Source: Bacteroidales bacterium (GTDB lineage Bacteria; Bacteroidota; Bacteroidia; Bacteroidales; P3). Taken from it: a DNA stretch of 64,000 nt. The stretch spans positions 186,001 to 250,000 of the forward strand of contig JAGBJI010000002.1 in NCBI GenBank assembly GCA_017934545.1, given 5' to 3'. A program made the translations under genes and the position numbers. The notes below the pieces were generated by a model, which did no database searches, had not been told where the DNA came from, and saw nothing but the letters and a program-made list of their open reading frames with translations. Positions 4,892-29,102 of this stretch are shown in pieces. Positions within the stretch are counted from its first letter, which is position 1. Every line of letters begins with the position of its first letter.

Positions 4892-5057
4892 GGCTTTTCG
4901 TTTCCGCCCTTTGCGAAAGTAATTGCAAAAAAATCACATTTTTTGCCTCAAAAAAATAGGTTTTTTCAGTAAAAAAATGTGATTTTTTTGCTTTTCTTTT
5001 CAGAAGGGGCGGCGGCAATGCCGCAAAAGGCAAAAATCTTTTGCTAAAGGGCGGAAA
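4863..5057. repeat. Phased dyad array, family B copy 1
   Basis: Core words AAAAAAATCACATTTTTT, AAAAAAATAGGTTTTTT and AAAAAAATGTGATTTTTTT are centred at 4936, 4958.5 and 4980 (22-bp steps). GCC words are centred at 4865, 4886 and 4907, and GGC words near 5009, 5030 and 5051 (21-bp steps), mirror-symmetric about 4958. The TTTCCGCCCTTTGC end at 4901 is matched by GCTAAAGGGCGGAAA. The array lies between two convergent genes and its left end runs into the last codons of the glycosyltransferase. Confidence 0.8.
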
Positions 5058-5079: not shown

Positions 5080-7419
5080 TTAGTTGTCGGAATGGAAATA
5101 GTTTTTCTCCATCAATTTGTATATCACGTTCTTATCGCCTATAACCCATACGGTATCGTTTTGGCAGAACTTCATCTGCGACGACGGATTGATGATAGGA
5201 GTGTCGTTGCGTTCAATAGCTATGACCATACATTTGTCTTTCATAAGCGTGGAATCAATAAGCGATTTGCCAATCCAATCGCTGCCGCTTTCAATCTGAA
5301 AGGTCAGACAGTGCAACAGTGAAGAGGCGTTGTTTTTTTGTTCAACGTTGAAATCGTTCAGCGTTTTTATTGCCGTGTAATCCAAACTTACGCTGTCGTC
5401 GTCCATATCCAACCGCCTGAGCGAACCTAACGTGCCGAGCATGTAAAGAATGTCGCCGCCGGAAAGCGAAAAATCGCCGTCAGGCAGGCTGTACTCACGG
5501 CCGTCTGTGCGTTTGACAGAGATTACCAACACATTGTATTCTTTTCTGAAGTCCAACTGTTTCAAACTTTTGCCGTTCAGCTTACCGTTTTCCGTTACCA
5601 GATATTCAGCCAAGTACATGTTGGAATCTATCCAATGCAGGTTGTCCAATTCGTTCAGCTTGCTTTTCGTCTTCTTGCTCTGTTCCACTATTTGGCGTGC
5701 GTTGAAGTTTTTGACAAACCGTGATTCTATCCTCCAATTGTAACGCAACAGCCGTTTGCTGTTGAATATCAAGGCAAAAAAGACTATTGCCGCTATGACG
5801 TCAACCCATGACGGAACGTGGGAATACTTGGTTATCACCATGAATGCGAAAAATATTGCCGCCACGTAACGCAATGTGGTGAAAAAGGAGAGAATGAATC
5901 GGTTGTTTGTGCTGTCGGTGTAAAGGGTGAGATACAAGTACGCCTGCTTTCCTGTATTGTGTATCATACCGCGAAGAATGGGAGCCATAACTACCAGAGT
6001 TGCGGCGGCAAATACCAGACGCATTGCCGTAGAGTGACGGCTTGCATCTGTCAACGGCAGCAACATATTGAAACTTATAAGCAACAATGCAATACATATA
6101 ATACTGTACAGAGCCAAGCGTGAAAAATAGGATTTAATGTATTGGCTCCAATCGGATTTTTGACATTCGGTTTTGTCCAAGGAGTGTTCCGTTGCGGTGG
6201 ATTCTGAATTTCTTGCGTCGTAAAGCCGTTTGTGTTTTTCGTAAGGCAGAAGTACCGAAACCAAGTTATAAACGGGTTCGCCCAAGCGTATACTGTACGG
6301 CGTGATGAATGTAGTCAGCACGCTCACTGCTATTGCTACGGGATAGACTTGCGGAGATATCAGCCCCAAAGCAATACCCGTTTGGGCAACTATAAAAGAA
6401 AATTCACCCATCTGCGACATTGAGAATCCCGCACGTATACTTGTTTCAAGGTTTTCGCCAGCCAATCGGACGCCTACTATATAGAAAAACGTCTTGCATA
6501 CAATAGGAATCAGCGATATAATAAGTATGGTTTTGATGTTTGAAGCCAAAACGGCAGGGTCTACCATCATGCCGACGGAAACGAAAAATATCATTCCGAA
6601 GAAATCTTTGAGCGGAGCAACAACCCTTGATATGCGTTCCTGGTCAAGAGTTTCCGCCAATATACTGCCCATCACAAATGCTCCGAGTGCAGAAGAAAAA
6701 CCTACTTTGACAGACAGCATGACCATAGCCAAGCATAATCCGACGGCTATCAGAAGCAATATCTCGTCATTTAGATGCCGTTTGGTTTTGTTCAGAAACG
6801 TAGGTATCAAAAATATACCTACAACTATCCAAATGACTATAAAGAATATCAGACGCACCAAAACCGCCGCCAGTTGCATGCCCGAAAACTGTGCGGAGGC
6901 TGCAAAGGTGGACAGGATTACCATTACCAAGATTGCAAACAGGTCGTCAAAAATCAGAATGCCGAAAACTATCTGGGCAAACTTTTCTTTGCTGTATCCC
7001 ATGTCGGTTAAGGATTTGACAATCATAGCCGTGGAAGACATAACCAGCATTGCACCCAAAAGAATACTGTCCGCAGGATTCCACCCCAAGAGTTTGCCTG
7101 CAAAAAATCCCGTCAGACCCAAGGCAATGATGACAAAGCCGATGGCTTTTGAGCCTATCTTGCCGATAGTGAACAGTTTTTTGAACGAGAAATCCAATCC
7201 CATTCCGAACAAGAGGAATATCACGCCGATGTCAGCCCAAGTGGATATATTTTCCTGCTGCACTGTTTGGAACAAATGAAAATGCGGGCCTGCAATAAAG
7301 CCCGCTATTATATAGCCAAGTACAACTGGTTGTTTCAACCACTTGCATATCAACGCAAACAAAGACCCTAAAATAACAATAACACCTAAATCGGTAATCA
7401 AAGACGGAAGTGAATCCAT
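5080..7419 (-). CDS. CPA2-type monovalent cation:proton antiporter with two TrkA-C domains
   Basis: 779 residues from the ATG at 7419. That start places the first membrane helix (LPSLITDLGVIVILGSLFALI) at the N-terminus; a longer frame to 7620 would run into the repeat array. Residues ~1-390 form the Na+/H+ exchanger domain with about twelve helices, including the GFSSALGAFVMGSILAET segment. A second hydrophobic block follows. Two cytoplasmic ligand-binding modules are at about 610-690 and 705-775 (FSLSGGDILYMLG; FCQNDTVWVIGD). It exchanges K+ or Na+ for protons at the inner membrane. The ion preference is not readable. Confidence 0.88.
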   Translation of the reverse strand: MDSLPSLITDLGVIVILGSLFALICKWLKQPVVLGYIIAGFIAGPHFHLFQTVQQENISTWADIGVIFLLFGMGLDFSFKKLFTIGKIGSKAIGFVIIALGLTGFFAGKLLGWNPADSILLGAMLVMSSTAMIVKSLTDMGYSKEKFAQIVFGILIFDDLFAILVMVILSTFAASAQFSGMQLAAVLVRLIFFIVIWIVVGIFLIPTFLNKTKRHLNDEILLLIAVGLCLAMVMLSVKVGFSSALGAFVMGSILAETLDQERISRVVAPLKDFFGMIFFVSVGMMVDPAVLASNIKTILIISLIPIVCKTFFYIVGVRLAGENLETSIRAGFSMSQMGEFSFIVAQTGIALGLISPQVYPVAIAVSVLTTFITPYSIRLGEPVYNLVSVLLPYEKHKRLYDARNSESTATEHSLDKTECQKSDWSQYIKSYFSRLALYSIICIALLLISFNMLLPLTDASRHSTAMRLVFAAATLVVMAPILRGMIHNTGKQAYLYLTLYTDSTNNRFILSFFTTLRYVAAIFFAFMVITKYSHVPSWVDVIAAIVFFALIFNSKRLLRYNWRIESRFVKNFNARQIVEQSKKTKSKLNELDNLHWIDSNMYLAEYLVTENGKLNGKSLKQLDFRKEYNVLVISVKRTDGREYSLPDGDFSLSGGDILYMLGTLGSLRRLDMDDDSVSLDYTAIKTLNDFNVEQKNNASSLLHCLTFQIESGSDWIGKSLIDSTLMKDKCMVIAIERNDTPIINPSSQMKFCQNDTVWVIGDKNVIYKLMEKNYFHSDN

Positions 7420-16441: not shown

Positions 16442-16640
16442 CCTTTTGATTGCCTTTAGCGAAACGGCGGATGCTTTTTCACATTTAATTTTTGCCCTTT
16501 GCGAAAGTAATTGCAAAAAAATCACATTTTTTGATGCAAAAAAATAGATTTTTTACCCCAAAAAACCTATTTTTTTTGAAACTCTTTTCTGAAAGGGCAA
16601 AAACCAAATGCTAAAAAGCACCCTTACTTTTGCAAAGGGC
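16442..16640. repeat. Phased dyad array, family B copy 4
   Basis: Core words with TCACA (16524), TAGA (16546.5) and CCTA (16567.5) lie in A/T tracts. GCC/GCT words at 16453, 16474 and 16495 mirror GGC/AGC words at 16597, 16618 and 16639. The inner arms TTTTTGCCCTTT (16489-16500) and AAAGGGCAAAAA (16592-16603) are perfect inverted copies. This is the 411-bp gap between clpB and the symporter gene; no ORF is visible in it. Confidence 0.8.
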
Positions 16641-22323: not shown

Positions 22324-22341
22324 AAGCGGTCTGGACGAGAC
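22324..22341. repeat. attL core, 18-bp direct repeat
   Basis: AAGCGGTCTGGACGAGAC is identical to the copy at 29025-29042 and to the 3' end of tRNA-Asp. The bases on each side differ (G/A left, C/T right), which sets the limit of the core. Confidence 0.92.
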
Positions 22342-22443
22342 CGAGACAACTATTTTTCTATACTTTTAAATTTGCTTTAAATATTCATATTATCAGTAAG
22401 TTACAAAATAATAAAAATTATTAAGAAGTAAAGAAAAGTACAA

Positions 22444-22467
22444 AAATAAGGTACAAAATAAGGTACG
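22444..22467. promoter_or_regulatory. Left integrase arm-type sites
   Basis: Two tandem AAATAAGGTAC-like 11-mers form a 24-bp block that recurs exactly at 28969-28992. The block ends 16 bp before the -7 element of the integrase promoter, so integrase binding could repress its own gene. Confidence 0.65.
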
Positions 22468-22483
22468 GTTTTGAAAAATGTTG

Positions 22484-22491
22484 TAACTTTG
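22484..22491 (+). promoter_or_regulatory. -7 promoter element of the integrase gene
   Basis: TAACTTTG lies 25 nt before the ATG at 22517, directly downstream of the arm-type repeats. Confidence 0.65.
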
Positions 22492-22516
22492 CAACTGAAA
22501 TTAAATTTTTGACAAA

Positions 22517-23749
22517 ATGACTACAAAATTTTATCTTAAAAAAGGACGTAAGAAAATATTTCTACGGGTCTGTATTGGAAAGGAGCAAAACGACTATACA
22601 ACAGGTTTAAGTGCCGATACTCAATATTGGGATAGCAAAAGGCAAAGAATTAAGCATACAGCCGTTTTATTGGATAAAGTCTATATAAACAATATTCTGA
22701 ACGATATAGACACACAATTAAAGACGTTTGAGTATCAATGTAGGTTAGAACATAAAGAAATAAACCAAGATGATATAAAACGACTATTAAGCAATGTTAT
22801 AAACGGCAAAGATGAAGATAAACCAAAGACATTAAGGCAATTTATATCTGAATATGTTGAGCAGGCAAAACACCGCCAAAGTATAACCACAGGCAAACCA
22901 CTAACAGAGGACACAATCAGAAAGTTTAAGAATTTTCAGAGTTTATTTGATGAGTATTGCAAGGCAAAACACAAAGAGTTTGATTTTGCCGATATAAATA
23001 TATCGTTTTATGATGATTTTAAAGAGTTTTTACAGAATACAAAACAATATGCAATAAACACTATCGGCAAATATATAAGAACGTTTAAAACAATACTCAA
23101 TGAAGCCACAACAAGCGGTACAAATACCAATTTAATTTATCAGAATGCAAGATTTAAGGTAACGAATGAAGATGTAAGCAAAATTTATTTGTCTGTTGAA
23201 GAATTGGAGAAAATAGAGGCGTTAAACCTCAACGATGAATTAAATAAAACAAGGCAGGCGTTTTTATTGGGTTGTTATACAGGGTTGAGGTATAGCGATT
23301 ATTCACGTTTGACAAATGACAATATTTCAGAAAACAAGTACATAAGGACTATACAACAAAAGACAGGCGGCGAGGTTGTAATACCGTTGTTTCCTTATGT
23401 AAGAAACTTAATAAACAATAACCGATTGGAAAATATCGCCGATGTACCCGATTGGAAAATAAACCGAGAAATAAAAACTATTTGCCAAAGGGCAGGTATA
23501 AATGACAAAGTTATAAAAGTTCAAACAAAGGGCGGTAAAAAACAGCAGACTACAACGGAGAAATGGGAAGAAGTAAGTACCCACACGGCAAGGAGAAGTT
23601 TTGCAACTAACCTATATTTACAGGGCGTTCCTACAACTACTATAATGAAAATAACGGGGCATAAAACAGAAACAGCGTTTTTAAAGTATATAAGAATAAC
23701 AAATAAAGAAAACGCCGATTTATTAGCAGAAACAATTAAAAAAGCGTAA
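22517..23749 (+). CDS. int: Tyrosine recombinase (integrase) of the element
   Basis: 410 residues. The N-terminal arm-binding domain (residues 1-90, FYLKKGRKKIFLRVCIG, WDSKRQRI) and a SAM-like core-binding domain (~105-200) precede the catalytic domain. Catalytic residues visible: Arg in CYTGLRYSD, the HTARRSFATN box (His and Arg), the TGHKT box, and the nucleophile Tyr in AFLKYIRIT. This is the Bacteroidetes conjugative-transposon/phage integrase type. It should recombine the 18-bp att cores. The gene lies at the end of the element distal to the intact tRNA. Confidence 0.95.
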   Translation: MTTKFYLKKGRKKIFLRVCIGKEQNDYTTGLSADTQYWDSKRQRIKHTAVLLDKVYINNILNDIDTQLKTFEYQCRLEHKEINQDDIKRLLSNVINGKDEDKPKTLRQFISEYVEQAKHRQSITTGKPLTEDTIRKFKNFQSLFDEYCKAKHKEFDFADINISFYDDFKEFLQNTKQYAINTIGKYIRTFKTILNEATTSGTNTNLIYQNARFKVTNEDVSKIYLSVEELEKIEALNLNDELNKTRQAFLLGCYTGLRYSDYSRLTNDNISENKYIRTIQQKTGGEVVIPLFPYVRNLINNNRLENIADVPDWKINREIKTICQRAGINDKVIKVQTKGGKKQQTTTEKWEEVSTHTARRSFATNLYLQGVPTTTIMKITGHKTETAFLKYIRITNKENADLLAETIKKA

Positions 23750-23760
23750 TAAAATAGAAT

Positions 23761-23804
23761 AAAATGTATAATTATTATGTTTTATTGAGAAAAAATGTAT
23801 AATT
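23761..23804. promoter_or_regulatory. Candidate HigA operator repeats at the higBA promoter
   Basis: AAAATGTATAATT occurs at 23761-23773 and again at 23792-23804, 31 bp apart (three helical turns). The second copy overlaps the -7 element. Antitoxins of this family bind such promoter sites; the assignment is inference. Confidence 0.4.
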
Positions 23805-23807
23805 TTG
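23800..23807 (+). promoter_or_regulatory. -7 promoter element of higBA
   Basis: TAATTTTG lies 19 nt before the higB ATG at 23827. Confidence 0.65.
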
Positions 23808-23826
23808 CAAACAGAAATAAAAGAGT

Positions 23827-24150
23827 ATGGAAATAGTTTTTAAAGATAAGGATTTACAGGAATTAATAACGACAGGAAAAAATAAGCACTATAAACGTAT
23901 TGCAAAGGACAGTGTATTAATGAATGGACTAACAAGGGTATATACCACGTTGTTATTTGCCGAGAATATAACAGAGGTACAAAATACAAGTTATTTGCAC
24001 TATGAGAAACTGAAACACGGATATAGCGGTATTAGTAGCGTTAGGATTGTACAGAACCGAGTAGAACGATTGCTATTTACCGAGAATGAAAATAAGATTG
24101 AAATAACATTGTTAAAAATAGATACAACACACTATGGAAACAAGAAATAA
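23827..24150 (+). CDS. higB: HigB-type (RelE superfamily) toxin
   Basis: 107 residues, the usual HigB length. The order is a short N-terminal strand, a helix (DLQELITTGKNKHYKRIAKD), the middle LHYEKLKHGYSGISSVRIVQNRVERLLF and a C-terminal strand (KIEITLLKIDTTHYGN), typical of HigB/RelE ribosome-dependent mRNases. Arg residues in SVRIVQNRVERL correspond to the active region. The 3' end overlaps higA by 17 nt. In the element the pair would favour stable inheritance. Toxin-first order is the standard for higBA. Confidence 0.85.
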   Translation: MEIVFKDKDLQELITTGKNKHYKRIAKDSVLMNGLTRVYTTLLFAENITEVQNTSYLHYEKLKHGYSGISSVRIVQNRVERLLFTENENKIEITLLKIDTTHYGNKK

Positions 24151-24535
24151 CATAATGCCATACAAGGCAGTTCATCCAGGCGAGATTTTAAAGGAGGAAT
24201 TGGAAGCAAGGGGTATCAAGCAAAAGGATTTTGCACAATCAATAGGAATGATACCAAGCAATTTAAACGCTATAATCAACGGCAAACGGAATATAACCGA
24301 GCGTATAGCGGAAAGGATAGCAGAGCAATTACAAGGGATTTCATCTGGCTTTTGGGTAAGAGTGCAAAAAGGTTATAATGAAACCGTCAAACAAGCGGTA
24401 AAGAGCGAGGAAAAACAGACGGTAAGCGTAAAACCTCAACAACAAGAAGAAAGTACCGATATTGCAATATTAAGGCACTTTTCAATAATAGAAAGCGAGA
24501 TATTGCAATTAAGACGGCTACTAATTACAAAATAA
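24134..24535 (+). CDS. higA: HigA-type XRE antitoxin
   Basis: 133 residues. VHPGEILKEELEARGIKQKDFAQSIG and the following SNLNAIINGKRNITERIAERIAEQL form the HTH of the HigA/VapI family; HPGEILKEEL is its signature. GISSGFWVRVQKGYNE is the conserved post-HTH helix. The tail (residues ~90-133) is polar with a short predicted helix. It should bind HigB and repress the operon promoter. A second ATG at 24155 (MPYKAVHPG) would also give a full domain; the first allows coupling to higB. Confidence 0.9.
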   Translation: METRNNIMPYKAVHPGEILKEELEARGIKQKDFAQSIGMIPSNLNAIINGKRNITERIAERIAEQLQGISSGFWVRVQKGYNETVKQAVKSEEKQTVSVKPQQQEESTDIAILRHFSIIESEILQLRRLLITK

Positions 24536-24570
24536 AAGATTGAATACTAATATAATAAACAAATAGAGAA

Positions 24571-25527
24571 ATGGCAGATTTTTATAGAATCCAATATTCA
24601 AAGCCTTTAAACTCAGACAATACCTATTTTGGCTACAAAGATATTGATGCCCGTAGAGAAAAAGGAACGCCAACAGATAAGAGTATTATTGACTTTTTAG
24701 CAAGTAATAGAGTTAATAAATATATTTGCAGTTCAACACTAAATTTTGAAAGTGGAGTTATTATGGCAAATATAGATTTTATGATTAATGAAATGCAGAA
24801 AACTCCAAAACCTACAAAAGACGCTTTAGTAAATATTGCCAGCAGGGGAATGAACGATAAAAAATATATGACAGTGTTAGTGTGTGGGCTATTTATAGTA
24901 AAGATACTTAAGGATTATCATTATTTAAAAGAGACTATTGTATTTGAACAAGTAAAGCGATATATGGACGGTTATACATATTTATCTTTAAAAAAGGATG
25001 AATATAGGGAAAGTTTATTATCCGATGTCTTTAATACACAAACACCAGAAGAAAAACACGAAAGCGAAGAGTTGCAAAAAGTAAAAGAAAGGGTGGAAAA
25101 AGTAGAAGATAATATAAAAATACACAATGAATATTTTGCAGGGGAAAAGACACTCAAGCAGACAGATAAAGAAACTAAAAACTTATATAAAGAAGACGAT
25201 AATAACGATAAAACAGAAGCACAAATTTTATTAACAAATAATGAATTTATGCAGGTTATGGTAACAGCAGAAAAAAATAATTATGTACAATCTGAGGGGT
25301 GGCGTTTTGAATGGAAAGATACCAAAAGGAATTTAGCCCATTTTGTTAGATGTGCAAATAAAAAATTTAATTTATATGCAAAAGGGACAGACGGGGGTAA
25401 CAATCCAAGAATAAATTGGCAACCGTTTGAGAAATTATTTAAACAAAAAAGACAGTCCCTAAAACAAGTATTCAAGGATATAAAAGAAGACGATACACCC
25501 GAGGAAATAACAAATTTATTTAACTAA
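24571..25527 (+). CDS. Hypothetical element protein, 318 residues
   Basis: I do not recognise the family with confidence. Residues 1-150 are a mixed alpha/beta region with no known motif. Residues ~165-215 are strongly charged with a predicted coiled coil (ELQKVKERVEKVEDNI). The C-terminal ~85 residues (YVQSEGWRFEWKDTKRNLAHFVRCANKKFNL, then WQPFEKLFKQKRQSLKQ) resemble a compact module often found in proteins of Bacteroides mobile elements. No membrane segment or signal peptide. It follows higA by 35 nt and ends at a terminator, so it may be part of the higBA transcript. Confidence 0.55.
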   Translation: MADFYRIQYSKPLNSDNTYFGYKDIDARREKGTPTDKSIIDFLASNRVNKYICSSTLNFESGVIMANIDFMINEMQKTPKPTKDALVNIASRGMNDKKYMTVLVCGLFIVKILKDYHYLKETIVFEQVKRYMDGYTYLSLKKDEYRESLLSDVFNTQTPEEKHESEELQKVKERVEKVEDNIKIHNEYFAGEKTLKQTDKETKNLYKEDDNNDKTEAQILLTNNEFMQVMVTAEKNNYVQSEGWRFEWKDTKRNLAHFVRCANKKFNLYAKGTDGGNNPRINWQPFEKLFKQKRQSLKQVFKDIKEDDTPEEITNLFN

Positions 25528-25550
25528 TAAACAATTATTTATTGTTTTAA

Positions 25551-25587
25551 AGAAATACACGTGGGGTTACACGTGTATTTCTTTTTT
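25551..25587 (+). terminator. Rho-independent terminator inside the element
   Basis: AGAAATACACGTG and CACGTGTATTTCT form a 13-bp stem with a 6-nt loop and a T6 tail. It separates the int-higBA-hypothetical block from the rep block. Confidence 0.9.
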
Positions 25588-25600
25588 GTGCCTGTATATC

Positions 25601-25608
25601 TAATTTTG
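25601..25608 (+). promoter_or_regulatory. -7 promoter element of the rep block
   Basis: TAATTTTG follows the terminator by 13 bp and lies 53 nt before the HTH gene. Confidence 0.6.
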
Positions 25609-25661
25609 CAACTGAAAACGATTAAGAAAAATTTTTATTAATTTTAAATACTTTTAAAACT

Positions 25662-25931
25662 ATGGAAAAAGGAATTTTCATAACAGGGATTACCCGAGAG
25701 GAATTTTTTACAGCGTTACAAGGTTGTAAAATTGCAAGTGATGAGGTTAAACCTCAACCCGATGAAATGATAACAAGACAGGAAGCGTGCAAACGTCTAA
25801 ATGTTTGTTTGAGTACAATTGATAATTGGATTAAGTCGGGTTTATTACCTTATTCAAAGGTAGGGCGTAGAGTGTTATTGCAACGTGCCGATGTAGTAGA
25901 GTTGATAACTAAAAACAAAGTGAAGAAATGA
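25662..25931 (+). CDS. Helix-turn-helix protein, excisionase-like (HTH_17)
   Basis: 89 residues. Residues ~37-85 are a MerR/excisionase-type winged HTH: MITRQEACKRLNVCLSTIDNWIKSGLLPYSKVGRRVLLQRADVVELI. This small module is common as directionality factor or regulator in Bacteroidetes integrative elements. It is the first gene after an internal promoter and overlaps the next gene by 4 nt (ATGA). It may control excision, rep expression or both. Confidence 0.82.
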   Translation: MEKGIFITGITREEFFTALQGCKIASDEVKPQPDEMITRQEACKRLNVCLSTIDNWIKSGLLPYSKVGRRVLLQRADVVELITKNKVKK

Positions 25932-26482
25932 ATAAAATCAACGTACAGCCTACAATAGAGGCACAAATAAGGTATTATGCCGTTATGGAGTTTGTAAAAG
26001 GCAATAAACCGATAAAAACGCCAAAATATGAAATAACACAATGGGCAGGGGATTATCCTCCTATGGAGCAATTAAAGGGAAAAAATGGGCGTATTTCATT
26101 TTACCTAATGGAGAAAAGAAGTAAAAAAGAAAATGCCCCCGAGTATTATTTACAGGCAAAAGGCAGTTTTAATTTTACAGGTTTAAAAGATTACTTTATA
26201 GACAATAAACCGAGTAAATATGCCTATGGTTACCCGTTAGCAGTGCAAACATACTCAAAAGAAAGGCGTATTAATCCATTTTATGAGTATAGAACTGACG
26301 GATTTTTATTCATATTTCATTTTGAGAATAATACCTCAACGCCCGAGAAAATAGAACTACTTGTATTAAAAGGAGCAAAAACCTTTATTGAATGGCATAA
26401 TAAAGCACTTATGCAAGGCGGTTATAATGATATATTGGAAGATTTAAGACAGCAAGCCAAAAATAACCAAGTTCTATTATAA
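25928..26482 (+). CDS. Hypothetical element protein upstream of rep
   Basis: 184 residues, soluble, no motif I recognise. Aromatic-rich beta-like stretches (YYLQAKGSFNFTG, FLFIFHFENN) are followed by a helical C-terminus. It overlaps the HTH gene by 4 nt, so they are co-translated. Its last four codons (VLL and the stop) are encoded by the first 47-bp origin-like repeat. It could be an accessory replication protein, but that is position-based guesswork. Confidence 0.55.
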   Translation: MNKINVQPTIEAQIRYYAVMEFVKGNKPIKTPKYEITQWAGDYPPMEQLKGKNGRISFYLMEKRSKKENAPEYYLQAKGSFNFTGLKDYFIDNKPSKYAYGYPLAVQTYSKERRINPFYEYRTDGFLFIFHFENNTSTPEKIELLVLKGAKTFIEWHNKALMQGGYNDILEDLRQQAKNNQVLL

Positions 26483-26515
26483 CAAGTGGAATTTAATCAA
26501 AGAAACTTTGAATTT
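26469..26515 (+). repeat. Origin-like 47-bp direct repeat, copy 1
   Basis: Identical over 47 bp to 27455-27501. It contains GTTCTATTATAACAAGTGGA followed by a hairpin TCAAAG-AAA-CTTTGA. The layout resembles the filamentous-phage f1 plus-strand origin, where the gene II protein nicks in TTCTTTAATAGTGGACTC just before a hairpin (recalled from knowledge, not aligned by tool). It ends 2 nt before the rep ATG. Confidence 0.75.
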
Positions 26516-26517
26516 TT

Positions 26518-27456
26518 ATGTTTGACAAAGTTACATTGTTTCAGTTTGCCGATGAGGTCAAAAAAGATAATGAGAATATCATTAATCAATTTGACAATGC
26601 AGAGGAAAAAGTCAATTTGCAAACAGGGGAAACCTCAATATCTGGCAATATTGGGACAATGAAACTTTGTCTATCTATTAGAGGATTAAAAATAAGGGGA
26701 AGTTTGCCAAAATATCTATATGGAAATAATATTTATCCACTTGACAGAAAAACGACCAAACAGGCGTTAGAGAAATTAAGCAATAATTTACATATAGACG
26801 TAACAAAAGCAAAGGTTTCAGCGTTAGAGTTTGGAAATACTTTTTTAATGAGTAATGATGTTAAATGGTATCTTATACGATTAGGTAATATGCCGAGATA
26901 TAATCGGGCGAGTTATGCCGATGATACCCTTTATTATAGAACTAACGGTAAAAGAAAAAGTAAAGAATTTTGTTTTTATAATAAAGGCGAGGAAATGAGA
27001 AAGAAAAACGTCCCTATACCTGAGTTATTGGAGAGGCAAAACCTATTAAAGTATGAAATACGTTTATATGGACGGATTGCACAACAATTAAGAATGCAAG
27101 AAGTAACGGGACAAACATTAACGGAATATGAAATAAATAAAAGGCTTTTGGAAATGTACAAAGAAGTCTTTATGTCAATAAATAAAGTGCCACAAATACC
27201 AATTACAGCAATGGAGAATATAACAACAGTAAAAGGAGCAAAAGACTATTTATTTGCATATTTATTAAGACAGGCAGGCATAGACAAAATAAACGACTTT
27301 ATTACTAATTGCAGATGTGCCGATATGTTTAAAAATAAGCAAGAATATTCACGTTTAAAATCTGAATTAATAAAACTTACTTCTTTTGATGGTTCAGATG
27401 ATGAATTATTAGAAGAATTAAAAAACGATATTTTGAATACAGGGCAAAATTTGTAA
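26518..27456 (+). CDS. rep: Replication initiator of the filamentous-phage gene II/X family
   Basis: 312 residues. MFDKVTLF at the start, then KLCLSIRGLKIRGSLPKYLYG and NIYPLDRKTTKQALEKLSNNL, AKVSALEFG and LLKYEIRLYGRI are hallmarks of the phage/plasmid replication protein II/X family (Phage_CRI/gene II like). Such proteins nick a double-strand origin and start rolling-circle replication. The gene lies exactly between two identical origin-like repeats. The start follows the first repeat by 2 nt, so the 5' leader of rep is the putative origin itself, allowing autoregulation. No Zot or coat gene accompanies it. Confidence 0.85.
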   Translation: MFDKVTLFQFADEVKKDNENIINQFDNAEEKVNLQTGETSISGNIGTMKLCLSIRGLKIRGSLPKYLYGNNIYPLDRKTTKQALEKLSNNLHIDVTKAKVSALEFGNTFLMSNDVKWYLIRLGNMPRYNRASYADDTLYYRTNGKRKSKEFCFYNKGEEMRKKNVPIPELLERQNLLKYEIRLYGRIAQQLRMQEVTGQTLTEYEINKRLLEMYKEVFMSINKVPQIPITAMENITTVKGAKDYLFAYLLRQAGIDKINDFITNCRCADMFKNKQEYSRLKSELIKLTSFDGSDDELLEELKNDILNTGQNL

Positions 27457-27501
27457 GTTCTATTATAACAAGTGGAATTTAATCAAAGAAACTTTGAATT
27501 T
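27455..27501 (+). repeat. Origin-like 47-bp direct repeat, copy 2
   Basis: Exact second copy, same orientation, 986 bp after copy 1 and starting inside the rep stop codon. Sequence 3' of the repeat diverges from the rep start. Confidence 0.75.
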
Positions 27502-27564
27502 GTGTTTTGGAAAAGTCAATAAAAATAAATTCTAAAATAGAAAGAAATAGAGGGGATTTAGAAA

Positions 27565-27885
27565 ATGATAGAAAAGAGGAAAAAGACAGGCGGACGGAAA
27601 AAAGGAACGCCTAACAAGGTAACAAAAGATATAAAAAGTTGGATTGAAAAAATAATAAATGACAATTTTCAACAGATACAAGCGGATTTGTCGGCGATGA
27701 AACCCGATGAAAGATTTAAGGCGATTGTTTCCTTATTGCCGTATGTAATACCAAAACAACAAAGTGTATCAATAGAGGCACAGATTGAGGCAGAAATGAA
27801 AGCGATAAATAAAGCACTTGAAACGGCAGACGATGAGGTATTAAGTAAGATTGCAGATAAAATGCTAAAAAATATAAAAGATTAA
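27565..27885 (+). CDS. Small basic DUF5681-like protein
   Basis: 106 residues. The N-terminus KKTGGRKKGTPNKVTKDIK is the basic GGRKKGTPN motif seen in DUF5681-like proteins of phages and mobile elements. A helical middle follows, with LPYVIPKQQSVSIEAQIEAEM near 60-80, which is also typical of Bacteroidetes element versions. The basic head could bind DNA in AT-hook fashion. A phage terminase small-subunit link has been proposed for some relatives, but no terminase is present here. Confidence 0.65.
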   Translation: MIEKRKKTGGRKKGTPNKVTKDIKSWIEKIINDNFQQIQADLSAMKPDERFKAIVSLLPYVIPKQQSVSIEAQIEAEMKAINKALETADDEVLSKIADKMLKNIKD

Positions 27886-27890
27886 ACATT

Positions 27891-28139
27891 ATGCAGATAA
27901 AATTAAATACAGAAAGAAAAAGGTATTTACTTCAAGCAATAACAAAAGAGGCGTTAGAATGGGATATTTTGGCAGAATGGGTAGAATTGCAAGAAGATAG
28001 AGATATATCCGATAACACAAAAGAGAGTTTGCAAAAGTATTGTGAAATGTTAAAGAAATGTGGTTTGTGTGAGAAAGGAAAACCTTTAACAATGCAAGAG
28101 GCAAGGGAACTTATAAAAAGAATTGAAAGTGAAATTTAA
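27891..28139 (+). CDS. Small hypothetical protein, possibly cut by a premature stop
   Basis: 82 residues, helical and charged, no known motif. It starts 5 nt after the previous stop, so it is in the same operon. After its TAA the same frame stays open for 22 more codons to a TAA at 28204-28206 and reads like protein (FENELEALRLKYPFDEKY). That suggests a recent nonsense change shortened the protein from about 105 residues, or that the stop is read through at times. Confidence 0.5.
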   Translation: MQIKLNTERKRYLLQAITKEALEWDILAEWVELQEDRDISDNTKESLQKYCEMLKKCGLCEKGKPLTMQEARELIKRIESEI

Positions 28140-28213
28140 GGAAATGTAACGTTTGAAAATGAGTTAGAAGCGTTGAGGTTGAAATATCCGTTTGATGAAA
28201 AGTATTAAAAAAT

Positions 28214-28244
28214 TTTGCCAGGAACTAAAAAGGTACTAATTTTG
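28214..28244 (+). promoter_or_regulatory. Promoter of the structured leader
   Basis: TAATTTTG at 28237-28244 with TTTG at 28214-28217, 19 bp apart. The expected start point, near 28249-28250, falls on the first paired base of the leader fold. Confidence 0.75.
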
Positions 28245-28248
28245 CAAT

Positions 28249-28419
28249 ACCTAACAAATACAACCATAAATAGAGGTTAAACCTCAACGATTAAGGCGGT
28301 ATGTACCCCCGTGTAAATTTGTAATGGATTTACAAACTACTAATGGTTGTGTAGTTAGGTAACGGGAAAGGCACACCGTTTTTTATTTGTGCCAAAACCT
28401 AAACAAAACAACCATAAAA
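28249..28419 (+). ncRNA. Structured 5' leader or regulatory RNA with pseudoknot
   Basis: ACCTAAC (28249-28255) pairs with GTTAGGT (28354-28360) and ACAACCAT (28260-28267) with ATGGTTGT (28343-28350). Inside are hairpins GAGGTTAAACCTC (28273-28285) and TGTAAAT/ATTTACA (28312-28334). Downstream AACGG (28361-28365) pairs with CCGTT (28376-28380), and GGCACA in that loop pairs with TGTGCC (28388-28393), an H-type pseudoknot. A 19/22 copy of the 5' strand lies at 28397-28418, just before the ATG, and could compete for the same partner. I cannot assign it to a known riboswitch class. Confidence 0.6.
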
Positions 28420-28818
28420 ATGACACAAGAACAAAGAAACGCTATTTTAAGCGATTTAGAGCAAAAAAGAGAGATTGGAAGAAGTAATCAATCAACAAAA
28501 GAAAACGCCCCAGAAAGTGAATTAGAGGTATTAGAAAGCGATTTTATCTACCAAAGCAAGACAGAGGATTTGAACACGGTTAAATTATCCTCAACAACAA
28601 AAGAACTCTTTAAGTTAGTTTTGAAGTTGGAAAATGTAAAGTCAATTTCTTATGAACTGATAAGGGAAGTAATGCCCAATGACGACATTTTAGGGAAAAT
28701 GAACGACATAACGGATTATGTAGAAAATTTAGAAGATAATTTGTTGGACGTTGCAATACTAAACATTCAGAAAAACCTTATCGGTGATGATGAGCAATAT
28801 TCAATACAGGAAATTTAA
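28420..28818 (+). CDS. Hypothetical acidic protein behind the structured leader
   Basis: 132 residues from the ATG at 28420. A TTG at 28387 is in frame but lies inside the pseudoknot stem, so it is an unlikely start. The protein is acidic and largely helical with no motif I recognise; residues ~55-130 look like a compact helical domain (TTKELFKLVLKLENVKSISYELIREVM). It is the last gene of the element and has its own promoter and a 170-nt folded leader, so its expression is likely controlled at RNA level. Confidence 0.55.
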   Translation: MTQEQRNAILSDLEQKREIGRSNQSTKENAPESELEVLESDFIYQSKTEDLNTVKLSSTTKELFKLVLKLENVKSISYELIREVMPNDDILGKMNDITDYVENLEDNLLDVAILNIQKNLIGDDEQYSIQEI

Positions 28819-28832
28819 CAGAGAAAACAAAA

Positions 28833-28862
28833 TTGTAAAATGATAAAATTTTTGTAATTTTG
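28833..28862 (+). promoter_or_regulatory. Orphan promoter near the right end of the element
   Basis: TAATTTTG at 28855-28862 with TTG at 28833-28835, 19 bp apart. No ORF follows, but a terminator does. Confidence 0.6.
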
Positions 28863-28867
28863 CAAAG

Positions 28868-28929
28868 TCAAAAATTTAATTTCATTGTGTTTCATTAAGG
28901 CGATTTTGTCAGAGTGAAACACTTTTTTT
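28868..28929 (+). ncRNA. Candidate small RNA of about 60 nt
   Basis: It runs from the predicted start of the promoter at 28833-28862 to a terminator hairpin GTGTTTCA (28887-28894)/TGAAACAC (28915-28922) with a T7 tail. The 20-nt loop would be exposed for pairing. There is no ATG ORF inside. Confidence 0.45.
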
Positions 28930-28961
28930 GTCTAAAAATATGATGAGGTAAAACAAAAAAT

Positions 28962-28992
28962 GTACCTTAAATAAGGTACAAAATAAGGTACG
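28962..28992. promoter_or_regulatory. Right integrase arm-type sites
   Basis: The 24-bp block at 28969-28992 equals the left block at 22444-22467. An inverted copy just before it makes the palindrome GTACCTTAAATAAGGTAC at 28962-28979. It lies 32 bp inside the right att core. Confidence 0.65.
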
Positions 28993-29004
28993 TTTTAATG
29001 TAAA

Positions 29005-29021
29005 ATATTGAAAATCAATAT
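29005..29021 (-). terminator. Element-supplied terminator for tRNA-Asp
   Basis: On the minus strand ATATTGA-TTT-TCAATAT is followed by TTTAC and lies directly after tRNA-Asp. It appears to replace the chromosomal terminator displaced to 22287. Confidence 0.5.
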
Positions 29022-29024
29022 AAA

Positions 29025-29042
29025 AAGCGGTCTGGACGAGAC
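29025..29042. repeat. attR core, 18-bp direct repeat at the tRNA-Asp 3' end
   Basis: Identical to 22324-22341. It covers the 3' acceptor strand and part of the T-arm of tRNA-Asp, so integration regenerates the tRNA gene. Confidence 0.92.
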
Positions 29043-29102
29043 TCGAACTCGCGACCCCATGCGTGACAGGCATGTATTCTAACCAAGCTGAACTACCAGA
29101 CC
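29028..29102 (-). tRNA. tRNA-Asp(GUC), integration target
   Basis: 75 nt on the minus strand. The acceptor arms GGTCTGG and CCAGACC pair with discriminator G. The anticodon GTC corresponds to plus positions 29065-29067 in loop CTGTCAC. The T-arm is GCGAGTTCGAGTCTCG. CCA is not encoded. Its 3' end is the att core of the element. Confidence 0.96.

Follow-up and report, generated by a model that had tools for sequence, protein, structure and literature searches.

The window analysed here, a stretch of 64,000 nucleotides taken at its full length, contains a 6.7-kb element (about 22324-29042) integrated in a tRNA-Asp gene. The integration target, tRNA-Asp(gtc), is on the minus strand at 29027-29102 (ARAGORN, RF00005), and its 3' end carries the right att core (29025-29042), which is an exact 18-bp repeat of the left att core AAGCGGTCTGGACGAGAC at 22324-22341. 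An exact 24-bp repeat, possibly an integrase arm site, is located just inside the att cores at 22444-22467 and 28969-28992. A tyrosine integrase of 410 aa is encoded at 22517-23749 on the plus strand (PF00589, 4e-15; PF13102; PF17293). With this integrase, a tRNA 3'-end target and flanking att repeats, the tyrosine-integrase element named in the original prediction is real.

The other genes of the element are likewise on the plus strand. The integrase gene is followed by a candidate HigB/RelE-like toxin (23827-24150; phrog_3066, 6.9e-5; PF05015, 0.015, below the cut-off), a HigA-family antitoxin (24134-24535; TIGR02607, 8.2e-15), an ORF of 318 aa with chance-level family matches and none in PADLOC (24571-25527), and an HTH/excisionase-like protein (25662-25931; TIGR01764, 2.3e-11; PF12728, 2.4e-12). 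The next gene, orf3 (25928-26482, 184 aa), was followed across elements by HMM and alignment and is found directly 5' of the rep gene in relatives, where its product ranges from about 130 to 200 aa. No Pfam, PHROG or NCBIfam family was matched by orf3, which might encode a gene V-like ssDNA-binding protein. Behind rep, a 106-aa protein of group cl4 (27565-27885; the window protein was itself among the search seeds) is followed by ORFs of 82 aa (27891-28139) and 132 aa (28420-28818), both without family match. A cl4 gene was detected behind rep in 18 of the 30 related elements described below, and more weakly in one more; the cl4 member of locus L074 is a DUF5681 protein (PF18932, 1.4e-6), and the window protein has no PF18932 match. 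Neither an inovirus Zot/pI-type assembly ATPase nor coat genes were found among the ten ORFs of the element, which was thus not classed as a filamentous-phage prophage.

The rep gene (26518-27456, plus strand) encodes a gene II/G2P-type rolling-circle initiator of 312 aa. Residues 54-194 match PF05144 (G2P/Phage_CRI) at 1.6e-12 and 48.1 bits, above the cut-off of 21.7, which places Rep in this family. Alignment of 25 Reps showed that Y154, K156 and E159 are invariant (Y-x-K-x-x-E context), and the window Rep is 23-33% identical to the other 24. The Rep profile did not match the f1 gene II protein significantly by itself (probability 0.7, E 0.077); in this non-significant profile alignment, the FYDK motif of Rep was aligned beside f1 YLKHVE, whose tyrosine is Tyr197 by count and which we take to be the active residue of the f1 protein. 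No match to the window Rep was obtained in the PDB sequence search, in plasmid and phage records at E 0.01, or in viral-contig scans using single Reps; the viral-contig scans using Rep alignments returned three loci each.

The rep gene is flanked by an exact 47-bp direct repeat on the plus strand, with copy 1 at 26469-26515 and copy 2 at 27455-27501, 986 apart from start to start, confirming the original prediction. The TCAAAG/CTTTGA hairpin claimed for each copy was also found, as TCAAAG-AAA-CTTTGA at 26497-26511 and 27483-27497. Copy 1 contains the stop codon of orf3 and ends 2 bases before the rep ATG, and copy 2 starts inside the rep stop codon. When up to 3 mismatches were allowed, the 21-base core of the repeat was found at two places in the window, both of them the repeat copies (0.01 expected from shuffles), and with up to 2 mismatches it was unique to the same two places across the genome assembly of 2.38 Mb (14 contigs). 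The covariance-model scores were 28.8 bits for copy 1 and 26.2 bits for copy 2, the window copies being part of the training set of the model. Two further long exact repeats of the window, at 4901-4990 (total 70 bp, spacing 2724) and 16515-16599 (46 bp, spacing 3388), are unrelated to the rep element.

Copy 1 is arranged like an f1-type origin: it lies upstream of rep and carries, on the rep-sense strand, a nick-site motif and then a hairpin. Copy 2, behind rep, has the same layout. A model (R1) trained on these elements alone, with f1 excluded, was used to scan positions 5400-6400 of the f1 record J02448. The best match (5769-5814, gene II sense strand) is weak, with 11.0 bits and E 0.086, and the next match, with 10.4 bits, lies elsewhere on the other strand. 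The best match covers the f1 plus-origin cut site, given as TTCTTT/AATA (cut at the slash) in the available text of PMC4403547. The f1-like layout named in the original prediction is therefore supported on J02448, since the f1 plus origin is the best, though weak, match of the model and lies on the right strand. The nick in copy 1 is predicted between 26477 and 26478 by alignment to the f1 cut site, and that in copy 2 would fall between 27463 and 27464 when mapped via the model.

The window Rep was matched in 16 of 190 genomes of its family and, for its order, in 14 of the 393 genomes sampled, and a profile search of the phylum gave 13 of 395, its own genome being counted each time. Further members were taken from 22 named GTDB-genome loci (mostly Bacteroidales and other Bacteroidota MAGs) and from IMG/VR contigs. 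Among the relatives gathered, none is close to the window's own element. A set of 30 elements was selected for rep and orf3; int was present in 25 and the HTH gene in 28, with some contigs ending too early to tell. Six duplicates (L057, L065, L067, L071, L073, L076), L075, which is the same place as the distant homologue L006, and nine loci with a Rep that is short, broken or at a contig end (L024, L045, L049, L069, L072, L077, L080, L123, L126) were left out of the 43-row tree. Also outside the 30-element set are L078 (which has the pair and a truncated orf3), L120 (weak pair, orf3 not detected) and L121 (no pair).

The recurrence of the pair was examined by comparing a region made up of the 200 nt ahead of rep and its first 130 nt with up to 300 nt past its stop codon. 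A matching direct-repeat pair around rep scored above all 200 shuffles in 20 of the 30 elements, and in 0 of 12 distant Rep homologues; the shuffles preserve base content only, and the elements and the regions compared were picked after pairs had been seen. The same test with 100 shuffles again gave 20/30 and 0/12, and in this run the element's own pair beat every mismatched element pair in 17 of the 20, the exceptions being L056, L059 and L060. The weakest pairs scored 12.5 against a shuffle maximum of 12.0 (L056), 15.5 against 12.5 (L060) and 16.0 against 13.5 (L055). With wider regions and 40 shuffles, the distant homologues L025 (13.0 versus 12.0) and L124 (14.0 versus 12.0) rose slightly above the shuffles; neither was above them in the 200-shuffle test.

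L074 failed the pair test, its second copy lying at +568 behind a 181-aa gene, and this copy was found by the covariance model. The close relative L079 (91-96% identity in three aligned stretches, about 3.4 of its 4.3 kb) has the same second copy at +9 without the 181-aa gene. The extra gene, of no known family, is thus located between the rep stop and the second copy (L074:7961-8506 versus L079:4094-4150). The search of other genomes that the original prediction had suggested therefore shows paired sites around rep in 21 of 30 related elements (20 by the shuffle test and L074 by the model), or in 23 of 33 when L078, L120 and L121 are added. The upstream copy ends at most about 50 nt from the start codon in most two-copy elements. 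Additional copies were observed in L018, with a third copy 67 bp further on, and in L068, where the copy-2 region is tandemly duplicated over 186 bp, giving the third copy.

The remaining nine of the 30 elements have an intact rep and only the upstream copy was detected, by the core or the model in L044, L046, L047, L054, L061, L118 and L119 and by eye in L048 and L050, indicating that the second copy is common but dispensable. By eye, a decayed second copy may remain in L061. The presence of copy 2 changes 6 times on the 43-row tree when the weak pairs of L043, L055, L056 and L120 are scored as two-copy. Two broken-rep loci outside the 30, L045 and L024 (the latter from the window's own genus), have the downstream copy only. 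The rep of L024 (10829-11814) is split in two frames and apparently decayed, with an origin-like copy of 28.2 bits at its 3' end.

Alignment of 45 copies showed a nearly invariant TATAGTAAG-like core, then a spacer, then the hairpin, and the core is kept in copy 2 as in copy 1. With the alignment made and the structure chosen by the analyst, the hairpin is paired in 81% of cells across the 45 copies, compared with 29-52% when the partner is slid. Double changes in the hairpin number 34, where the shuffles average 12 and 0 of 500 reach the observed value, while two of the five covariation measures remained within the shuffles (pairs with double changes, 81/500; further pair types, 49/500). In the 17 two-copy elements compared, identity between an element's own copies was 89% in the spacer and 71% in the left flank, versus 52% and 34% between elements. 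This within-element identity was reached by 0 of 5000 permutations, in which shared ancestry remains, and is what would be expected of two sites that a single Rep has to read. The nearest neighbour of the downstream copy was the copy of its own element in 9 of 17 only. Among sister pairs, within-element similarity was higher in L062/L063, L019/L020 and L062/L064, mixed in L058/L059 and L041/L042, and lower in L074/L079, in which copy 1 and copy 2 are conserved separately across the pair.

These observations are best explained, as far as comparison of sequences goes, by a real and recurrent paired-origin arrangement of a known Rep class, of which a minicircle is the testable consequence. The repeats would then be paired Rep recognition sites, an initiator and a terminator, that release a 986-nt ssDNA rep circle, a reading which we consider about evenly balanced between right and wrong. 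Rep would nick the rep-sense strand at copy 1, polymerase would displace the rep strand, and Rep would cut and rejoin at copy 2. The product would be a circle of 986 nt holding rep and one hybrid origin, formed from the integrated or the excised element, and replication begun at copy 2 of the excised circle would instead yield the rest, about 5.7 kb lacking rep. The nicking, the stop at copy 2, the circle and any advantage from it are all inferred; amplification of rep, or the halting of stray replication before it enters the chromosome, are possible benefits. No terminal repeat was found in three IMG/VR contigs (4.3-4.9 kb), and nothing convincing was obtained when contig ends among the loci were considered as circle junctions. 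Of these contigs, only that of L072 stops 2 nt past the rep stop codon; that of L080 starts with the rep start codon, which may be a trimmed boundary.

Same-strand Rep origins around rep should cut the element in two, and yet 21 of the 30 elements sampled, from a family spread over many genera, carry the pair. If both origins were fully active, the excised element should be split, and keeping it whole would need a control that is not visible in the element; both window copies look complete and nothing marks copy 2 as terminator-only. The persistence of the element suggests that one site is usually silent as an initiator, or that termination is leaky or subject to regulation. There are natural rep minicircles, or else the second origin is a control device of Rep elements. 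A bolder form of the paired-site reading, which we put forward tentatively and hold to be doubtful, is that these elements are natural two-origin replicators, in which Rep releases a self-amplifying rep-only ssDNA minicircle of ~1 kb apart from a rep-less integrase/cargo circle; in the L074 version, the minicircle would carry rep and one cargo gene. If true, one mobile element would be divided into a replication module and an integration module and kept so across Bacteroidota.

The second copy may have a role that involves no consequential circle. Copy 1 would then be the working origin and the rep operator, with copy 2 as a second binding site, a spare origin or a decoy. This is unlikely, though it accounts for several observations: the upstream copy is the one retained in the nine intact single-copy relatives, it lies near the start codon (about 50 nt in most, 2 bases in the window), and two sites read by one Rep would likewise stay matched. 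However, the nick-like core is conserved in copy 2 too, more than a mere binding site should need, and the broken-rep loci L024 and L045 have retained the downstream copy rather than the upstream one. There is also the gene II precedent, in which, according to the available text of PMC4403547, two same-orientation sites yield a circle. That copy 2 is instead a functionless by-product of local duplication and gene conversion appears improbable. The 100% identity of the window pair, the tandem duplication at L068, the three copies of L018 and the lack of a detected copy 2 in 9 of 30 elements would all fit such an origin, but the pairs recur across many genera with hairpins kept in copy 2, and the L074/L079 copies have drifted apart, yet each is intact across the pair. 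We give equally little credence to Rep being mainly a relaxase, with the sites as transfer origins of an integrative mobilizable element (IME) and their doubling serving mobilization. The available text of PMC5704250 and PMC7563843 describes putative relaxases of the RCR-initiator type in most putative streptococcal IMEs and one Rep_trans type with a demonstrated role in transfer, and PF02486 is matched weakly by the window Rep (2.3e-4, below the cut-off). Against this, the ten element ORFs scanned include no recognisable gene for a coupling protein or for another mobilization function, and known Bacteroidetes IMEs are described with canonical relaxases in the available text of a review.

The original prediction had also allowed that strand transfer by Rep had put a dso-rep module into an older origin, that is, a mobile cassette or nested HUH transposon. 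This is very improbable and is not supported by the comparison of loci. A single-gene unit with a direct repeat at either end is what such a cassette would look like, and the extra 181-aa gene between rep and copy 2 in L074, absent from L079, would also suit it. However, in the loci compared (the 30 having been selected for orf3) the unit is directly behind orf3 in the same element type, the nine intact single-copy relatives keep the upstream copy, and the main split is the same in the Rep and orf3 trees. At L068 the trees conflict, and a grouping of its Rep with the clade of its orf3 was rejected (AU p value 2.65e-7); the best BLAST matches of int, HTH and rep are like those of L018, L058 and L059, and orf3 alone is foreign. 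An exchange of the rep cassette at L068 was accordingly rejected, orf3 having moved rather than rep. The Rep tree also disagrees with the orf3 tree on the positions of W and of L056/L074/L079, which it supports weakly. A separate rep cassette was found neither in the loci compared nor in a strict screen of the 190 family genomes with model R1, which gave seven sites around rep in three genomes, with origin pairs only there, and one solo site (G189) with no element genes beside it, possibly by chance. The screen missed the window's own copies, so that absence elsewhere is only moderately informative. Occurrence of the unit at many unrelated sites, as for IS91-like elements, was not seen; it has a fixed place in one element type. 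In L068, from a MAG titled Prevotellaceae, the orf3 of a different clade (2453-2908) was swapped in just upstream of the origin.

To our knowledge, paired origins of this kind were known previously only as an f1 engineering trick. In the engineered f1 'microphage' or Ff-nano, pII starts at ori1 and ends at a shortened ori2 to give a small ssDNA circle, and the likeness lies in two gene II-type plus origins around a segment (PMC4403547, available text). That system is man-made; its origins enclose a packaging signal but no gene, helper phage is the source of pII, and ori2 is terminator-only (PMC4403547, same text). The window element, in contrast, is natural, with rep between origins that both look complete, and its circle is predicted. 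For CTXphi, free ssDNA is made by an RCR-like process between tandem prophages, and CTXphi/RS1 shares a phage-encoded HUH initiator and direct origin copies in the chromosome, whereas whole genomes are in tandem there, at dif via Xer recombination (PMC4439123, in the text available). The window has a single element with its own integrase and rep alone between the origins. The IMEs with RCR-type Reps are similar in combining a small integrase element with an RCR-initiator-type protein; those described in the accessible text of PMC5704250 and PMC7563843 are streptococcal, and paired origins around rep are not mentioned there.

IS91 and Helitrons resemble the unit in having an HUH-type enzyme between an initiation and a termination site and an ssDNA circle model, and differ for IS91 in that two distinct terminal regions, ori91 and ter91, are named and the element moves to new sites (PMC5714925, available part). 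The window unit was not seen to move. Its ends are near-identical, whereas ori91 and ter91 differ in sequence. The staphylococcal DSO-gene-SSO arrangement, in which RCR origins are proposed to delimit a gene travelling as ssDNA, has a dso on one side and an sso on the other side of a plasmid-borne resistance gene (PMC5037232, as far as its available text goes). Full-text literature searches, covering titles and abstract starts with subscription papers largely outside, returned no natural rep between two plus origins in Bacteroidota elements.

The Rep of L059 (BNVH01000087.1, titled Synergistales) is sister to that of L058, from a MAG titled Dysgonamonadaceae, which points to misbinning or transfer. 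The MAG of L061, also titled Dysgonamonadaceae, holds a full element and, besides it, a second, inverted rep (L061:440-2152) with one origin-like copy, which adjoins a CRISPR-like array.
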